Positions 6,554-25,580 of a stretch of DNA of 64,000 nt are shown here, piece by piece; the stretch's first letter is position 1; each line of letters opens with the position of its first letter. Below the pieces are notes generated by a model that saw only the letters and a program-made list of their open reading frames with translations, did no database searches and was not told the origin of the DNA. A program made the position numbers and the translations under genes. The DNA lies in the NCBI GenBank assembly GCA_016617785.1, contig JADILM010000004.1:868001-932000 (forward strand), in the 5' to 3' direction. Source of the DNA: Sporobolomyces roseus (taxonomy: Eukaryota; Basidiomycota; Microbotryomycetes; Sporidiobolales; Sporidiobolaceae).

Positions 6554-9494
6554 ATGGCGACCGCCTTTCTCTTACCTCTATACGTCGCAGTCGATACTTC
6601 AAGATCACTCATTACTTACAGTGTTTTACGCGGTGGAGCGGTTCTTTCTCCTTCGGCGATCACTTGCGCGTGAGTACATCCTTCTCTAGCTATCTCGAGT
6701 ACCAAAGTGAAGGAGATACGGGATAGTCAAGCTGATTCCTTGGTTCGCTTTTTCGTTCCATTTCATCAGCGCGGAGGGCGTGAAATTGGTGGTAGCCATC
6801 GGAGGAGTCTTGCATTCGACCAAAGGGAGTCTATCTGACCGGTTCCTACTCCCACCACCTCAACATGAAAGCCCTAGTCTCTTCGAAAAATGTCGACCGT
6901 ACCTCCGTTTCGCAACGCCCGCTGCACTCTACGGGTTCAACAACATCCTCTTCCTCGAAGCCCTTCATTACACTACTCCAGCTCTCCTACAAGTTTCCGT
7001 CCTATCAAAAGTGAGTCTTGAGCTGCGAAACGGGTTTACTCTGGAATTCCGGTTTGCTAATTCTCGCAACTAATTTAGCTCCCATTGACCGCGATACTTC
7101 ATCACCTCGTTATCCGAAGACGGAAAAGTCAATCGATGTGGTTATCTCTCGCTGTGTTGACGTGTGGAATGGCGGTCGCAGGTTGTCCTGAGCAAATTTG
7201 GGATCCAGAACAACGACGCAACATTCAGATCTTCGACTTTCTCACTGGCCCTTTGATCGGATTGACTATCGGGAGCGTCAGTGCATGTTCGAGTATTGTG
7301 ACGGAATTGATGTTGAAGGAGAAGGTGGAGTTTTGGCAAGCGCAAGTGTGGCTATACGGATGGGGATCGTTGTTTACGGGATTATTAGCTATCGGCGCAA
7401 ACTCTCGGGTAGTCCTCGACTCGCAATCAACCCTCGCATCCCTCCCCGCTTTCTTCCTCGTCGCTTCCGTCACTGCCGCAACCGGTCTTGTCGTCGCCCT
7501 CATCCTTCGTCAACGCGACAACCTCGTCAAACTCGTCGGAGCTTCCCTTTGCATCACTACCGTCTTCGTCCTACAACATCTTCTCTTCCCTCTCACCGAC
7601 GGTCTCGACTTCCGCACGACTTTCGGAATCGGTATTCTCACGGTGAGCTCGCTTTCTTCCTCAGTTCGGGACAACATTCGCTCATCTTTTCACCGATACA
7701 GCTCGCTACGTTCTGCTACAACTGGTACAAGGACAACGACGTCGACGATGAGAAACCCTCGGGAGTCTACCTTGAACTAGCTACGTCAGAAGACGGCGAT
7801 ACTCCCTCGGCCTCGAAAACCGAACTCGACGGCGAATCCTCCGAACACGCTCAAACACACTCTCCTTCCTCTATCTACAAACCCACGATCGGCAAACTCG
7901 CAGGAGCTCTCGGTTTCATCATTCTTCTTGCCTCTCTCGTCTCGCTCATTCCTCCAAACGAACGAAGTATCAAGAACGACGTTAACAACTTCTTCGCACC
8001 TCAAGGTATTAAACCTGCAGCGTGGGATGTGCCAATCCAGGATGCAGACTGCGTTCGGCGATACTCGGGAGGAGGAGAGGTCAACCACAACTCTTCGTTC
8101 CTCGCGGATCTTGACGAGAGAATCGTCGAATCTGGTTGTTCGGTATTCCCGATTCCTGACGCTGGGTTGATCGTAAGCTACCTTCTGCCCGTCTATCACT
8201 CTGAAAAACAGCTGATCTCGTTTACTTTCTCGCAGACTCATCTATTCTGGGCCGGAAAATGGCGAGATTCTTCTCACTCTATGACTCTCGACGCTTGGCT
8301 CGCTACTCAACCTTGGGAGACGTCAGCATCTCTCATCTGGTGGTATGAAGGAGATGGTCCTTCGGAGGACTGGGCCGATAAATACGTCGGAGCGGAATCG
8401 CCTTATCGAAACGTCGTTTCTTTCCGACGATTCGACGAAGCTATCGCGGAAGGGACTTGCTTGACGTCGATGAGGGAATGGATGGACGCCGAATATCGCA
8501 AGGAGATCAAATTGCCGGTTCCGACCCGGTCTGACTTGATTCGACTTCTCCTCCTCTCGAAATTCGGAGGAATCTGGTTAGACGCAGATTCAATCCCTCT
8601 CCGCGATTTCACTCCGCTCATTCGGGTCGGACCTGTCGCTCCGTCTTATGGAGGAGTCCTAAAGTGAGTTCAGTTTGTCTGGCTCATTTCCAAATACTCT
8701 CTGACCTCTTTCTTTGCGTTCTCGCAGCAACAACTTCCTGTCCTACGGTCCTGCTTGGTCAGGCGTCGGAGCTCGTGTTCTCGAGCTCGCTTGTCACATG
8801 CCCTATCCCGAAGAGGAGTGGAAGAAGCTGTATCCTGAGCTCAATCTCGGTGAGTGTCTTTCCTCGTCACTCTTTGCTGGACTTTGCTGATTCTCTCCGA
8901 TACTCCTCTGCCCTCAGTACACGCCTATTGGCTCTATAATGAAGGTGTGCCCATTATTGCCGATCTCTCCTCAAAGTCAACTAGGAGCTCATTTCTCTTC
9001 GAACGTTTCTACAGGCGTACACAAGTTGTGCAGAACGAAGGGATGTGGAGTCGGAGAGCTAGCGATCCAGCTTGTCGATGGAATGTTCTGGAGCTCACAG
9101 ACATTCCATCCCTGTGAAAGGACGGGAGAGACTGGACAATTTGGTCGTTCAAAGGCTCTTCCTTCACAATTGCACGGCCCGTTCACATGGCATGCTCGGT
9201 ACGTTTACATCGTGCTCTTCTACCCTTTCACAACAGTTGCTAACGTTCCCGCCTCGATACAGCATGACTCAACGATCCGATACCGTGAGCTTTGGGTTTC
9301 TCACTTTCCGTCTTCAGGTTATCAGAGCTGACTCTAGCCGCCTCTTCCTCGCTCTATAGGACGTATGCTACAATCGAGAGTCTGGAACTCTCCTCTCGGC
9401 TGTCAAAGCGCGAGTTGAGGGAGTACTCGAGCACAACCGACTCGGACAAGGTCGTGACCTCTTCCCTGGTCCTGGCTACGCTTCGCGTCTCTAG
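6554..9494 (+). CDS. Nucleotide-sugar transporter fused to a DXD glycosyltransferase
   Basis: Ten exons splice in frame: 6554-6669, 6770-7010, 7079-7642, 7702-8172, 8236-8663, 8728-8849, 8918-8944, 9015-9198, 9263-9284 and 9360-9494, summing to 2310 nt (769 residues). Residues 1 to about 320 are a multi-span transporter of the SLC35/UDP-sugar type: SRSLITYSVLRGG, AAEGVKLVVA, then FNNILFLEALHYTTPALLQV and LPLTAILHHLV, all landmarks of this family. A hydrophilic linker is followed by one more membrane span (GALGFIILLASLVSLI, near residue 380) and a lumen-type glycosyltransferase domain. Around residues 565-590 this has RSDLIRLLLLSKFGGIWLDADS, shown here as two parts: RSDLIRLLLLSKFGG and IWLDADS. 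That is the sugar-nucleotide/metal-binding DXD block of GT32 and capsule-synthesis-like enzymes. Inferred role: import and use of the same donor in the Golgi. The donor and acceptor are unknown. Confidence 0.8.
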
Positions 9495-13744: not shown

Positions 13745-15729
13745 ATGGAGGTTCAACGACGTGATCTCATATCGTTACCGCCATTACCTCGCCCACCTCT
13801 CGATCTTCTCCTTTCCAGCTCTTCCGCCTCTTCTCAAAACGCAACCCTACCAGATCCCCAACTATCCGATCGTCTTTCGCACCTCGCGGCGACATATTCC
13901 CGCTTGATGGTGGCTCAATCGAGAGATGATTCTCAAGAAAATTATCCGGTCGCAATCTCAAGGCTGAATTTCAAGGGAGGTGGTCAAGATAATAGTGAAA
14001 CCGGATTATATGAGGGTCAAGGTAGCAGCGAAGATGAAAGGGGATACCTGAATCGAAGAGACTCGCATCCTGGCAAAGGACTTGAGAGAATGGTGATATT
14101 AAGCAAGCACCCGAAAGTCGTCGAGGTCAGTCGAAACCTTCGCTCAGGAGCTCTCCCTACTTTCCCTAACTCAGGCGATCGACGTTACTTTGACGAACAG
14201 ATCGAGATCAAGCATCACGCAGCAGTACTCGTTGTCAAGAATCGAAACAGTCCCGAGCTTGTCGTCGAGGTGAGTTTGCTGTTACAGCTTTTCAAGTCTC
14301 CTTGAGTCGCTCACCATCTCGTCAAATAGTCTATGCCTTTCTTGTCTCGTCTTGGCTGCCAACTGCTGTATCATGGCGTTTTCGGACACGAGAAATTGCT
14401 GGATTCTAGTCGGGTTGAAAAGGTGAGTCTGAAGTCGACTCCTATCTGCTCGAGACACTGGCTGACCAAGGCTTCTCCGATCGAGAAGCTATTTCGAAAG
14501 TGGTCGAAGCGCGAAGGTGAGCTTTACGTCGTCGATTCCTCGGTTGTTGGCTTTGCTGACGATTCGAGTTTTCAAGGGCGACGTTTTGACTCTCTGATTA
14601 ACCCGTTACATCGGATACAGAACTACATTCAAGCATATCACGGTGCGTGTTATCTCAACGTCATCGCGCTTGTACGGAGCTCACCCGGATCTTCGAGCGA
14701 GATAGTCGATTGCAGCGATCTGCTCGAACCTGATCTTTCTCGATATCCTACGCTCAACACCTTCTTCTTCCGGCAAGTCTCTGTAACATAATATCACGAG
14801 GATATGCGCTAATTCAGTGTTGATCGGACGTATAGAAAACTTCGGAAAGATGCAAGACCAATAGCTGATCCCTCGAATCCCTCAATCCTTTCCTCTGCTG
14901 CAGACTGCCGGCTGACAGTGTTCCCAAGCGTCAAGAGTGCTCAGAAACTATGGATCAAGGGTCGACACTTCACGCTAGAACAGCTTTTAGGGAGTCAAGA
15001 ATTGGCTCGAACTTTCAAGGATGGATGTGTCGCGATCTTCCGACTAGCTCCAGCAGATTATCATCGCTATCATAGTCCGGTCGATCGCCAGTCAGATCAC
15101 CTTACTCATTCTACGAGCGATGCTGACTCGTGCTCACCCTGCAGATGCAACCGTCGGAAGTACAGGACACCTCGACGGAAAATACTACGTGAGTCGTGAG
15201 CTAGCACTCTCAGATTACTGTTCTGACGCCGTCTCCACACAGACTGTCAACTCGCTTATCGTTCGAGATACACGATTCAATCCGCTCGGAGAGAACAAAC
15301 GAGATGGTTCGCATCTCCTTCCAACCTCCTTGATTGATGAAGCGAGACTTATGTACTTGTCCACAGTAACGCTGCTGCATTGTGCTCGACCCAAGGGAGA
15401 TGTCGCCTTTGTTCAGATCGGTGCTCTGCTGGTTTCGAGCATTCGACAAACTCAAGAACCCGGTACTGTGGTCGCAAGAGGCGACGAGCTGGGCTATTTC
15501 GCTTACGGTGGGAGTACAATCGTCGCAGTGTTTGAGCGAGATAGTGTAGAGTGGGATGAGGATCTCTTGCGGAACTCGTCGGGAGACAACGACCTCAAAC
15601 TGCCTCTCGAAACGATGGTCAAGGTAAGGATTTTTCCGTTTCTTTCTCTCTGACGAATTCGGTCGACGCTGACATTCTCACTCGATTGTGCGATAGATGG
15701 GAGAGAGGATTGGCACTTGGAGAACTTGA
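13745..15729 (+). CDS. Phosphatidylserine decarboxylase proenzyme (Psd2-like, no C2 domain)
   Basis: The enzyme makes phosphatidylethanolamine from phosphatidylserine. Signature blocks appear in order: FRLAPADYHRYHSPVD, then GKYYTVNSLIVRDTRFNPLG and GENKRDGSHLL, a hydrophobic VAFVQIGALLVSSI strand, and LGYFAYGGSTIVAVFERDSV. The GGST tetrad is the autocatalytic cleavage site at which Ser becomes the pyruvoyl prosthetic group; fungal Psd2 enzymes use GGST where Psd1 uses LGST. The gene has about nine exons; the last one gives MGERIGTWRT and TGA at 15727. The N-terminus lacks the C2 and EF-hand regions of yeast Psd2 and has no clear mitochondrial presequence or membrane span, so location is uncertain (endosome/Golgi by analogy). 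The first intron, near 14126-14174, has a weak donor and may be drawn differently. Confidence 0.85.
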
Positions 15730-21442: not shown

Positions 21443-24400
21443 ATGTCTATTCAAGGTGAGCACTCCCTCGTTGTCCTCGACTGGCTCGTCATGATCAAGC
21501 TGAAACCTCAAGATTTATTGATCAACAGCGATTGATGTCGCCTCGGTGCACAGCTTGACGAGTGGACAAGTAGTCATCGATTTACAGACTGCTGGTGAGC
21601 TCCTCTGCCACTCTCGAACGCGTAGAGTCAAGTTGACAACCCCACTTTCATTTCGAAAATAGTGAAAGAGCTCGTAGAGAACGCGCTGGACGCTGGAGCT
21701 ACTTCAATAGGTACGCAAACGGTGTGAGCGCATCACGAGGAACGTAGCTGACAGCAGCAATCGACAGACGTCAAGTTCAAGGAACATGGAATCGATTCGA
21801 TTGAAGTTCAGGACAATGGCAAAGGGATTGATCAGGAAGACTGGGCTGGGATTGGTACGTCTAGGTCGTCTACTACTCAAGTACAGAGCTGATAACGCCG
21901 AGATGACAGCCTTGAAGCACCACACCTCAAAATTAGCTTCTTTTGCCGATCTGGCTCAAGTTTCGACTCTTGGTTTCCGAGGCGAAGCACTCTCTTCCCT
22001 CTGCGGTACCGCCAACCTTTCACTCATCACCTCGACCGTATCGACTGCACCCGCTGGTACATCACTCACTTTCTCTCGCAACGGAGAATGCATCGTAGGA
22101 GGAAAAGTTGCTCGTTCGAAAGGTACAACGATCAAGGTTGAGAAGCTATTCGAGTCGCTACCAGTCAGGAGGAAAGAACTGATCAAGAATGCTAAGAGGG
22201 AGTTTGGGAAAGCACTCGAATTGCTGCAAGCTTACGCTCTCATCTCAACGGGAGTCAGATTCGAAGTAAAGAACACGACGAAGAAGTGAGCCCTCGATCT
22301 CTCGTCTCTGCTCAAATGTCCAGTGAGGTGCTCACCGTTGCTATCCATCTAGCAAAACCATGACACACCTACAATCTCCCGCTTCTGCCTCTCTGAGATC
22401 CAACTTCTCTTCGGTCTTCGCTCCCAAATCGCTTCAAACTATGACAGAGCTCGATCTTACGCTCGAAGTAGCTGCAGACAAGAGTGTGTTGCGTTGGACA
22501 GAGGGTTCTGCCGAGTGAGCTTTCCCTCGTCCTTTTCCCTCGTCGTTTCGGTCGGAACTGATCCTGAGTGCTTTCAAATAGCGCGACAACGGAAGTCAAA
22601 GTCAAAGGGTTGATCTCGAAACCTACTGCTGGGAACGGTCGAACATCGGGAAATCGACAATTCTTCTACATCAATGGTCGACCTTTTCATCCTACCAAAG
22701 TGCGTGACGAAGTCGCTCCATCACTTTTGTCTCAGCTGATTCTGCGGATCCACGTCTTGCACAGATCGCGAAAGCTGTCAACGAAGTCTACAAGTCATTC
22801 GTCAACGGCTCGTTTCCGACGGTCGTTGCAGATTTTCAGCTCGCTACCGGTAAGTACCTCGCTCTCCTTCCCTAAACTATCTATCCTGATTTCATACTGC
22901 TCCATAGACGCCTACGATGTCAACGTCAGTCCGGACAAACGTACAATCTTCCTTCACAGCGAGGGGAATCTCATCTCTGCTCTCAAGGTAAGCTCACGCT
23001 TCATCGAATCTATCTGCTTTTCGACTCACGTCTTGCTTGTACAGGTCGCTCTCACCGAATCTTTCCAGCCTTCACAGTCGACTTTCGAGATGACCCAAAT
23101 CGGCGAAAAGGACAAGTCGAAAGGAGAATCGCGGGAGAAGAGCAGTCGACCTTCGAGCGAAGCCGACCTTGACGCAGATGCCAGCATGGAGAAGGAGAGA
23201 CCGAGTAAACGACGAAGGCTCGGGACGGCTGGACAGGAGGAACAAGGAGAGGAAATCGATGGGCCAGCAGATCAGTCAACACAGCAAGCTAGAGATGCGA
23301 TCCTCGACGACTCGATGGATGTCGAGGTAGACGCCGGTCTCTTCGCAGCTCGAGATCCCTCACAAGATTTCAATCTACCTCCAGAGTTTCAGGCTACAAC
23401 CGACGATGCTGAACAATCTTTCGAACTCCCTACTCCACCTTCTCCAATCCGAAGAGCAGTCTCAACTGGCAATACATCCTCTCCACCTCCTCAGTCTCGC
23501 GCCTCCTCTTCGTTCCCGCCGTCTCCAGTGCAAAATGGTCAGATCAATCCAATCCCCTCGACCTCTCAAACCTCTCCCGGAATCGACGAGGCGTCTCCTC
23601 AAGCCTCGACTTCCAAGGACCTACCTCTCTTCCGCTCTTCTCCCTCACCGACACCAGCTATCGACGACGAGCCAGTCGTTCCTCGATCCCCTTCTCGACC
23701 TCGACAACCTTCCCGTTCTCCCACTCCTCCTCCTCGGCAGCCTGTTGTGGCGAACAAGCTTCGACAGCCTCAATTGAACTTCGGCACGAGCTCCAGTAGC
23801 GACTTAAGCGAAGGAAAGAAAGATCGGAAAGGAAAGGGCAAAGAGAACGGGTTGAAGTCGATGCGAAACCTCCTTCAGAACTTTGTCAGACCTGGAGGAG
23901 CGGCACCAACACCACGAGGGAACGAATATGAAGACGATGGAGCTGGTGAAGAAGAGGAAGTGGATACACTGGAGTCGAGCGAAGACGAACGAGCACCGAT
24001 AGAGGAACCGAAATCGGAGACGAGGGAGCGAGGCGAGGTGGACGCGACGATGGATGAGTCGGAAGAGGATGAGCTACAAGAGACCGTCAATGAGCCGGGG
24101 GAGAAGCCGGAGGTTCGCGAGGTCGAGGATGATGAGGGAGACATCGAGATCGTCGAAGACAGCTTTCAAGCAGCATCACTTCAACCTGAACAGGACGACA
24201 AGGAGGACTCGGAAGACGAGCTCGAGATACTCGCTTCATCGTGCGCTTGCGTTCACGGATCGCCACTCGATGCAGCAGATGAATCGGAGAATCGCAAAGT
24301 CTCACGAGATTCTTCACCACCTCCAATACAGTTCGACCTACCCTTCGGAGCAGCACCTGCTGAAATCGCCGGTACCTTCGTCGCGGCTGACACGACGCTC

Positions 24401-25580
24401 GATTTCGACATGGCCTCCCTCGAAGCGATTTGGTCGAGTCCATCATTGTCAAAAGACGAAGCAGCAGATGAGGCAAGGCCCGAGGAAGCTTTCGAGATTG
24501 AAGGGGCTGGCATAGGGGAAGCGGATGACGCTGCTGCCGCGACACTTTCTCGAGTCGTTTCGAAGGAGGATTTCGAAGCGATGGAGATTGTCGGTCAATT
24601 CAACCTCGGGTTCATTATTGCTCGTCGCAAGGTCAGCAACAATGACGAAGCGACTGGAGATTTGCACGACGACCTGTTCATCATCGATCAACACGCTTCA
24701 GACGAAAAGTACAATTTCGAGAAACTTCAAGCAGAGACCATCATCCAATCTCAACGACTACTAGCGTAAGTCCTCCTTGCGACGTTTCCCACTATCGCCA
24801 GCTTATTGACAACTTGCGAACGTTACAGACCTCGAGTTCTAAATCTCCCTTCACACGACGAAATCACAGCTATCGAACATCTAGACCTCCTCCGCTTGAA
24901 CGGATACGACGTCGTAGTAGATGAAGATGCAGACGTAGGAGAACGAGTCAAGCTTCTCGCGCAACCGGTCAGCAACAAGACAGTCTTTGATATCGCAGGT
25001 GAGCTTTTCCTCCTCTCTTCTGTCGCAAAACTACAAGCTAAGTCGTCTAGCTCGTTCCTTTTCACCAGACTTTGAGGAGCTGCTCGATCTCATCGGCAAT
25101 CGGGCTGGGAATGAGGTCGTGAGACCTTCGAAGACGAGAAAGATGTTTGCGAGTCGAGCTTGTCGGAAATCAGTCATGATCGGAAAAGCTCTCAGTTCGA
25201 AACAGATGTCATCGGTGCGTTCAGCTCTCGTTACATCAGCTCGAATTCGATTGAGCTGATCCATTCCCCATCTGAATGCAGATCGTTCAACACATGGGCG
25301 GGATGGATCAACCTTGGGTGAGTACCTCCTACGTCTCCGTCGATCTCTCTTTGCTTACCTCGACTTCTGCGTCTTCAGGCTTGTCCTCATGGACGTCCAA
25401 CAATGCGATGGGTGAGCATTTGGCTAGTCTGTGCCTATAGTTCCGAAGCTGACCCGGTTCCGTCCTCCTCAGCTTGCTACTCTAGGTGTACTCCCCGCTG
25501 TCGACAAGCGTGCGAATTTGTCTTCGATCTTGAAAGCTTACGAGCTCGAGGAAAACTACGATACTGTTACGACTAATTAG
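21443..25580 (+). CDS. PMS1: DNA mismatch repair endonuclease PMS1 (MutL-alpha subunit)
   Basis: PMS1 pairs with MLH1 and nicks the error-containing strand. N-terminal GHKL ATPase: [36 protein letters not shown] (motif I with catalytic Glu and Asn), EVQDNGKGI (motif II), KHHTSKL and [12 protein letters not shown] (motif III). The transducer region includes [13 protein letters not shown] and [15 protein letters not shown] long acidic disordered linker of about 450 residues follows. The C-terminal endonuclease motif [12 protein letters not shown] matches DQHA-x2-E-x4-E exactly, and ACRKSVMIG and [10 protein letters not shown] supply the remaining metal-site blocks, so nuclease activity should be retained. 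The start at 21443 gives MSIQ, split by an intron after 13 nt. The stop is TAG at 25578. About twelve exons; a very confident orthologue. Confidence 0.95.

Follow-up and report, generated by a model that had tools for sequence, protein, structure and literature searches.

The 64,000-nucleotide stretch of Sporobolomyces roseus DNA analysed here (contig JADILM010000004.1, positions 868,001 to 932,000; referred to below as the window) contains, at positions 6554-9494 of its forward strand, a gene which joins an SLC35-type nucleotide-sugar transporter to a glycosyltransferase with a DXD motif. An earlier reading of the letters without database searches (the sequence-only reading) had proposed ten exons adding up to 770 codons with no internal stop. 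This was reproduced by re-splicing, which yielded 769 amino acids followed by a TAG codon, with all nine introns (59-100 bp) of the GT-AG type. Pfam recognised both halves of the protein, namely PF04142 (SLC35A-type) at residues 22-314 (71.8 bits against a cut-off of 27) and PF04488 at residues 538-593 (33.1 bits against 23); PF05704 remained just below its cut-off. The spliced protein and P0001, a relative from Sporobolomyces salmoneus, share 76% identity, with 100% of its length aligned.

The fused form is conserved in related species, as had been predicted. A search over 5.8 billion proteins returned 29 matches, 22 of which carry both Pfam domains in precomputed annotation. Every match with a name comes from Sporobolomyces, Rhodotorula or Rhodosporidiobolus, those closest to the window gene being Sporobolomyces proteins. 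Alignment A1 comprises 26 of these matches (P0013, P0024 and P0029 were omitted as short or truncated). At E <= 0.01, every aligned relative matched PF04142 and 23 matched PF04488, which shows that the pairing of the domains is not due to chance. With regard to the fusion outside the Sporidiobolales, a search with the full alignment, which scored the 7995 candidates with the most words in common, listed 28 proteins, P0030 being the only new one. The transferase half was also searched separately, with a profile built from six such halves. Three of the ten proteins retrieved (P0033, P0034 and P0036; 35-41% identical to the row that heads the query) correspond to open reading frames (ORFs) in which the same junction is present, i.e. 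a transporter end, linker and membrane span ahead of the transferase. They branch apart from the named sequences in a tree of the transporter end (support 0.994), and the divergent ORFs also separate in the transferase tree (0.997), from which P0036 was left out and in which P0035 joins them. The fusion is therefore probably older than the named set, as judged from these trees. Two proteins are recorded without the transporter: P0035 (445 aa) seems to consist of a transferase with its own anchor and may be an incomplete model, and P0031 (JCM5350_000821, 357 aa) is annotated without the transporter and begins ahead of the span.

The genome holding the window (22.4 Mb, 15 contigs) contains a second, diverged fused gene. 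Matches to P0001 fall at one further place only, on contig C7 (these counts are lower bounds), where the gene spliced in this study (226982-230016, minus strand) has 11 exons and encodes 789 aa with a DVD motif. The two genes share five introns in phase and position, two in the transporter half and three in the transferase half; four of these lie in the same alignment column and one is two columns apart. It is therefore probable that both genes descend from one fused ancestor. The model of the C7 gene also contains an 11-nt micro-exon. No relative of this transferase half was found in the 4-5 kb around each of the other five PF04142 loci of the genome, and the other five PF04488 loci coincide with no PF04142 locus.

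The junction itself lies within a single open exon, which is part of an uninterrupted frame (7192-8667), and the join is thus independent of any choice of splice sites. A new start between 7780 and 8236 had been named as a possible sign of two genes. Methionine is absent from residues 198-479 of the window protein, and the window gene therefore offers no in-frame ATG for a separate membrane-anchored transferase. This Met-free stretch is a feature of the window gene and not a general one, since a Met occurs in 18 of the 26 relatives within the region matching P0001 residues 321-464. A sequencing error at the join, another possible objection, is disfavoured by the open junction exon, the fused relatives and the fused paralog. 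The fusion in the window is real and conserved, and is not an artefact; the single gene proposed by the sequence-only reading is upheld by its two Pfam domains and by its fused relatives.

Features of the window; positions are counted from its first letter
Feature	Position	Strand	Remarks
Exon 1	6554-6669	+	38 codons and 2 bases; transporter half begins; MATA.LL.LY start common to relatives
Exon 2	6770-7010	+	Transporter half; intron 1 at the same place and in the same phase as in the C7 paralog
Exon 3	7079-7642	+	Transporter half, codons 120-307; within the PF04142 span 22-314
Exon 4	7702-8172	+	Transporter end, linker, extra membrane span, start of transferase half; single open exon; no Met
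Linker	7738-7896	+	Residues 320-372; poorly conserved
Extra (11th) membrane span	7897-7953	+	Residues 373-391; hydropathy 2.35
N-glycosylation sequon Asn437	8089-8097	+	From the window protein sequence
Exon 5	8236-8663	+	Transferase domain core; PF04488, residues 538-593
DXD motif Asp580-Ala581-Asp582	8581-8589	+	Window sequence in the spliced frame
Exon 6	8728-8849	+	Transferase half; from splicing
Exon 7	8918-8944	+	Micro-exon of 27 nt, coding for VHAYWLYNE, of which the first and last codons are split; compare FYWLYNE in P0001
Exon 8	9015-9198	+	Transferase half; from splicing
Exon 9	9263-9284	+	22 nt; compare ARMTQHADTD in P0001
Exon 10	9360-9494	+	TAG stop at 9492-9494; C-terminus DLFPGPGY common to relatives
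Phosphatidylserine decarboxylase domain	15048-15650	+	Pfam
ORF with MutL-type mismatch repair domains	22568-24766	+	Pfam; C-terminal domain just below cut-off

The AlphaFold model of P0001 comprises ten long helices, then an eleventh, and then a GT-A fold. Its transporter part matches the CMP-sialic acid transporter and SLC35B1 (Foldseek, VIA-align). Several residues correspond, by alignment, to positions of the CMP-sialic acid transporter that we take to touch the nucleotide; of these residues, Y213 and K271 are kept in all 26 relatives, N98 and K120 in 25 each, and Y94 in 22 (F in three, one gap). Gln209 stands where CMP-sialic acid transporters have Asn, a residue which presumably lines their pocket. 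Overall, the transporter half is better conserved than the transferase half (mean column identity of 71% versus 64% in the alignment of relatives). Kinship with SLC35A, which we take to indicate a pyrimidine-nucleotide sugar as the substrate, points to such a sugar as the donor. The earlier assertion that the fusion by itself reveals the donor is premature, since for the transporter, too, this kinship points no further than to a class of substrates. The fused transporter is not filed under the NCBIfam subfamily TIGR00803 (nst).

In the other half, the D-x-D is kept in 22 of the 26 relatives, and the corresponding part of the P0001 model matches GT-A enzymes by the same structural comparisons; the matches listed include the UDP-sugar enzymes UGGT, glycogenin and LARGE1. 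Weak sequence and fold matches to bacterial toxin and effector transferases were also seen. These were ascribed to the DXD / GT-A signature that such enzymes have in common rather than to kinship.

The two halves are connected by a linker which shows a mean column identity of 47% over P0001 residues 321-371 and predicted local confidence (pLDDT) values of 26-43 across residues 321-360 of the P0001 model. The extra membrane span behind it, proposed from the window sequence, was found in all 26 relatives and appears as a helix at residues 371-388 of the model. Placement of the transferase half in the lumen is supported only indirectly, by the helix count (an even number in the transporter, followed by a single extra span), by eight cysteines of the transferase half that are invariant wherever aligned, and by at least one sequon within the predicted lumenal half in 25 of the 26 relatives. 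The lumen-side position claimed earlier thus agrees with helix count, cysteines and sequons, but draws nothing from the charge around the extra span, which is neutral with respect to the positive-inside rule. Conserved cysteines also occur in the transporter half, and so they are no proof of the lumen on their own.

Another phenomenon concerns the different histories of the two halves in the relatives. Four Sporobolomyces species each have two near-full-length copies of the window's group. In all four, identity between the copies of a species amounts to 93-100% in the transporter half (residues 40-320) but to 58-83% in the linker, stem and transferase segments. The copies with this pattern are P0001/P0010, P0002/P0009, P0003/P0005/P0013 and P0004/P0006 (the record of P0006 is without the first 24 residues). 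P0003 and P0005 of S. carnicolor differ at residues 38 and 308 and nowhere in between; the stretch over which these proteins are identical, codons 39-307, corresponds to exons 2 and 3 in the structure of the window gene. P0013, a third and shorter carnicolor copy, shows three differences from P0003/P0005 over residues 47-296 and wide divergence outside. In comparisons made on protein sequence, with the tested pairs chosen after the trees had been seen, the transferase data rejected trees that paired the copies of one species in carnicolor (p 6.6e-7), salmoneus (0.0046) and pararoseus (1.4e-5), and the transporter data rejected two arrangements in which copies were grouped according to transferase type (p 1.8e-6 and 3.2e-56); for the latter, P0003 and P0005 were not constrained, being identical over the tested part.

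Gene conversion of a transporter cassette accompanied by free divergence of the transferase is the simplest reading of these data, and we regard it as likely. It is weakened by koalae, in which pairing by species was not rejected by the transferase data (p 0.117), and by the closeness of the transporter between species as well (85-96% in type pairs). The pattern would suit a common donor used on several acceptors. The genome of the window yielded a single copy of this group, and the pattern therefore belongs to the relatives. We tentatively suggest, as a possibility that is perhaps rather doubtful, that the Sporidiobolales possess a modular family for import and transfer, in which a cassette kept uniform within a genome by conversion (approximately residues 39-307) fixes the donor, the transferases diversify towards other acceptors, and some Rhodotorula copies without D-x-D may control or aim the transporter.

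We infer that the fused protein most likely functions by coupling import to transfer, and it seems to us fairly probable that the window gene encodes a single Golgi protein which imports a pyrimidine-nucleotide sugar and passes this donor to its own lumenal transferase. The N-terminal, ten-helix SLC35A-type half would import the sugar, most likely a UDP-sugar; the donor would be handed over near the transporter exit to the C-terminal GT-A (PF04488-type) half, which the eleventh span would hold on the lumenal face of the Golgi membrane. Golgi residence, transport, transfer, the UDP-sugar donor and its local supply, like the channelling put forward by the sequence-only reading, are all predicted features of this protein. 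Several observations weigh against such a picture. The structure is that of P0001, standing in for the window protein, and the transporter part of this model is of low confidence (blocks of 40-73); in the window protein, plain hydropathy picks out only six of the ten spans of the transporter. The scores of P0001 and P0014 for TIGR00803 (20.1 and 22.7 bits) are below the cut-off of 55.85, and P0034 is without any match. Within the transporter half Cys190 is invariant and Cys278 nearly so, and the net charge is about equal on both sides of the extra span. The D-x-D is missing, with the transporter kept, in P0025-P0027 (Rhodotorula) and P0028 (Sporobolomyces pararoseus). These four proteins keep the cysteines of the transferase half wherever aligned and can be regarded as candidate pseudo-transferases.

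Alternatively, the transporter half might serve mainly as a Golgi anchor or assembly platform, with the transferase drawing on a common lumenal pool of donor. We consider this unlikely, although the poor conservation of the linker and its low model confidence would suit it: no part of the protein is better conserved than the transporter half, and its K and DN..K positions are kept even where the D-x-D has been lost, which exceeds the needs of a mere anchor. The proteins without D-x-D, with their retained cysteines and transporter positions, could rather indicate that the lumenal half of some family members has ceased to be an enzyme and binds an acceptor or regulates the transporter instead; we give this little credence, and it does not cover the window gene, which has the motif like most of its relatives.

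It is also conceivable that the donor of the transferase differs from the cargo of the transporter (e.g. GDP-mannose) and that the fusion is a historical accident. Gln209 in place of Asn could be cited in its favour, but UDP-sugar enzymes appear among the structural matches listed for the transferase half, and the fused order has been retained across divergent clades; in our view a mismatch of donors is very improbable. Least credible of all is the joining of neighbouring transporter and transferase genes by an annotation or sequencing error, to which only the transporter-less P0031 and P0035 lend some colour. The two-gene reading was rejected in view of the open, Met-free junction exon, the presence of the junction in three genera with named genomes as well as in further ORFs, and the fused paralog with its five shared introns.

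As regards the surroundings of the gene, no glycan gene cluster was seen among the ten window ORFs (of 96 with at least 130 aa) scanned against Pfam with introns ignored; two of the ten matched, one a phosphatidylserine decarboxylase and the other MutL-type repair domains.

Among the papers listed by searches of an open-access library aimed at a natural transporter-transferase fusion, none was found to describe one, judged by titles and the beginnings of abstracts; the sequence-only reading likewise knew of no characterised enzyme with this order. In passages of a report on SLC35 genes of Rhodotorula toruloides (PMC12628781), a fusion is not mentioned. Whether a transporter supplies particular transferases or only a common lumenal pool has so far been argued from fluorescence and pull-down experiments on separate proteins. 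A fusion kept across genera makes the question of coupling testable by point mutants in one polypeptide; moreover, the donor of a fungal transferase could be approached through its transporter, and the natural variants without D-x-D may separate the functions of transport and transfer.

The fused protein resembles the SLC35A transporters (PF04142; 6i1r, 6oh2-6oh4) in its profile score above the cut-off, its fold and its K and DN..K positions, but is only about 20% identical to the solved members, from which it also differs by one Gln for Asn and by the added eleventh span and transferase. With the DXD glycosyltransferases of PF04488/PF05704, which we take to be CAZy family GT32 (the Och1 kind), it shares a PF04488 score above the cut-off, the DXD motif and, in the relative P0001, the GT-A fold. 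PF04488-type transferases are normally separate proteins, each with a single N-terminal anchor; in the fused protein the anchor is an eleventh span behind a transporter, and the eight invariant cysteines are a further difference. Mammalian transporter-transferase complexes are reportedly the subject of PMC11994309, as well as of two papers drawn on here. In the sections drawn on here, PMC6453868 and PMC9368800 describe complexes of mammalian SLC35A2 and SLC35A3 with UGT8, Mgats and B4GalT1, and section 4.7 of PMC9368800 states that the role of such interactions is not fully understood. As far as these sections describe them, the mammalian complexes show the same pairing of functions and a proposed coupling of import to transfer. 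The fused protein may act in a similar way. The mammalian complexes are nevertheless formed by separate, non-covalently associated proteins with other transferases, whereas in the fused protein the association is covalent and one-to-one.
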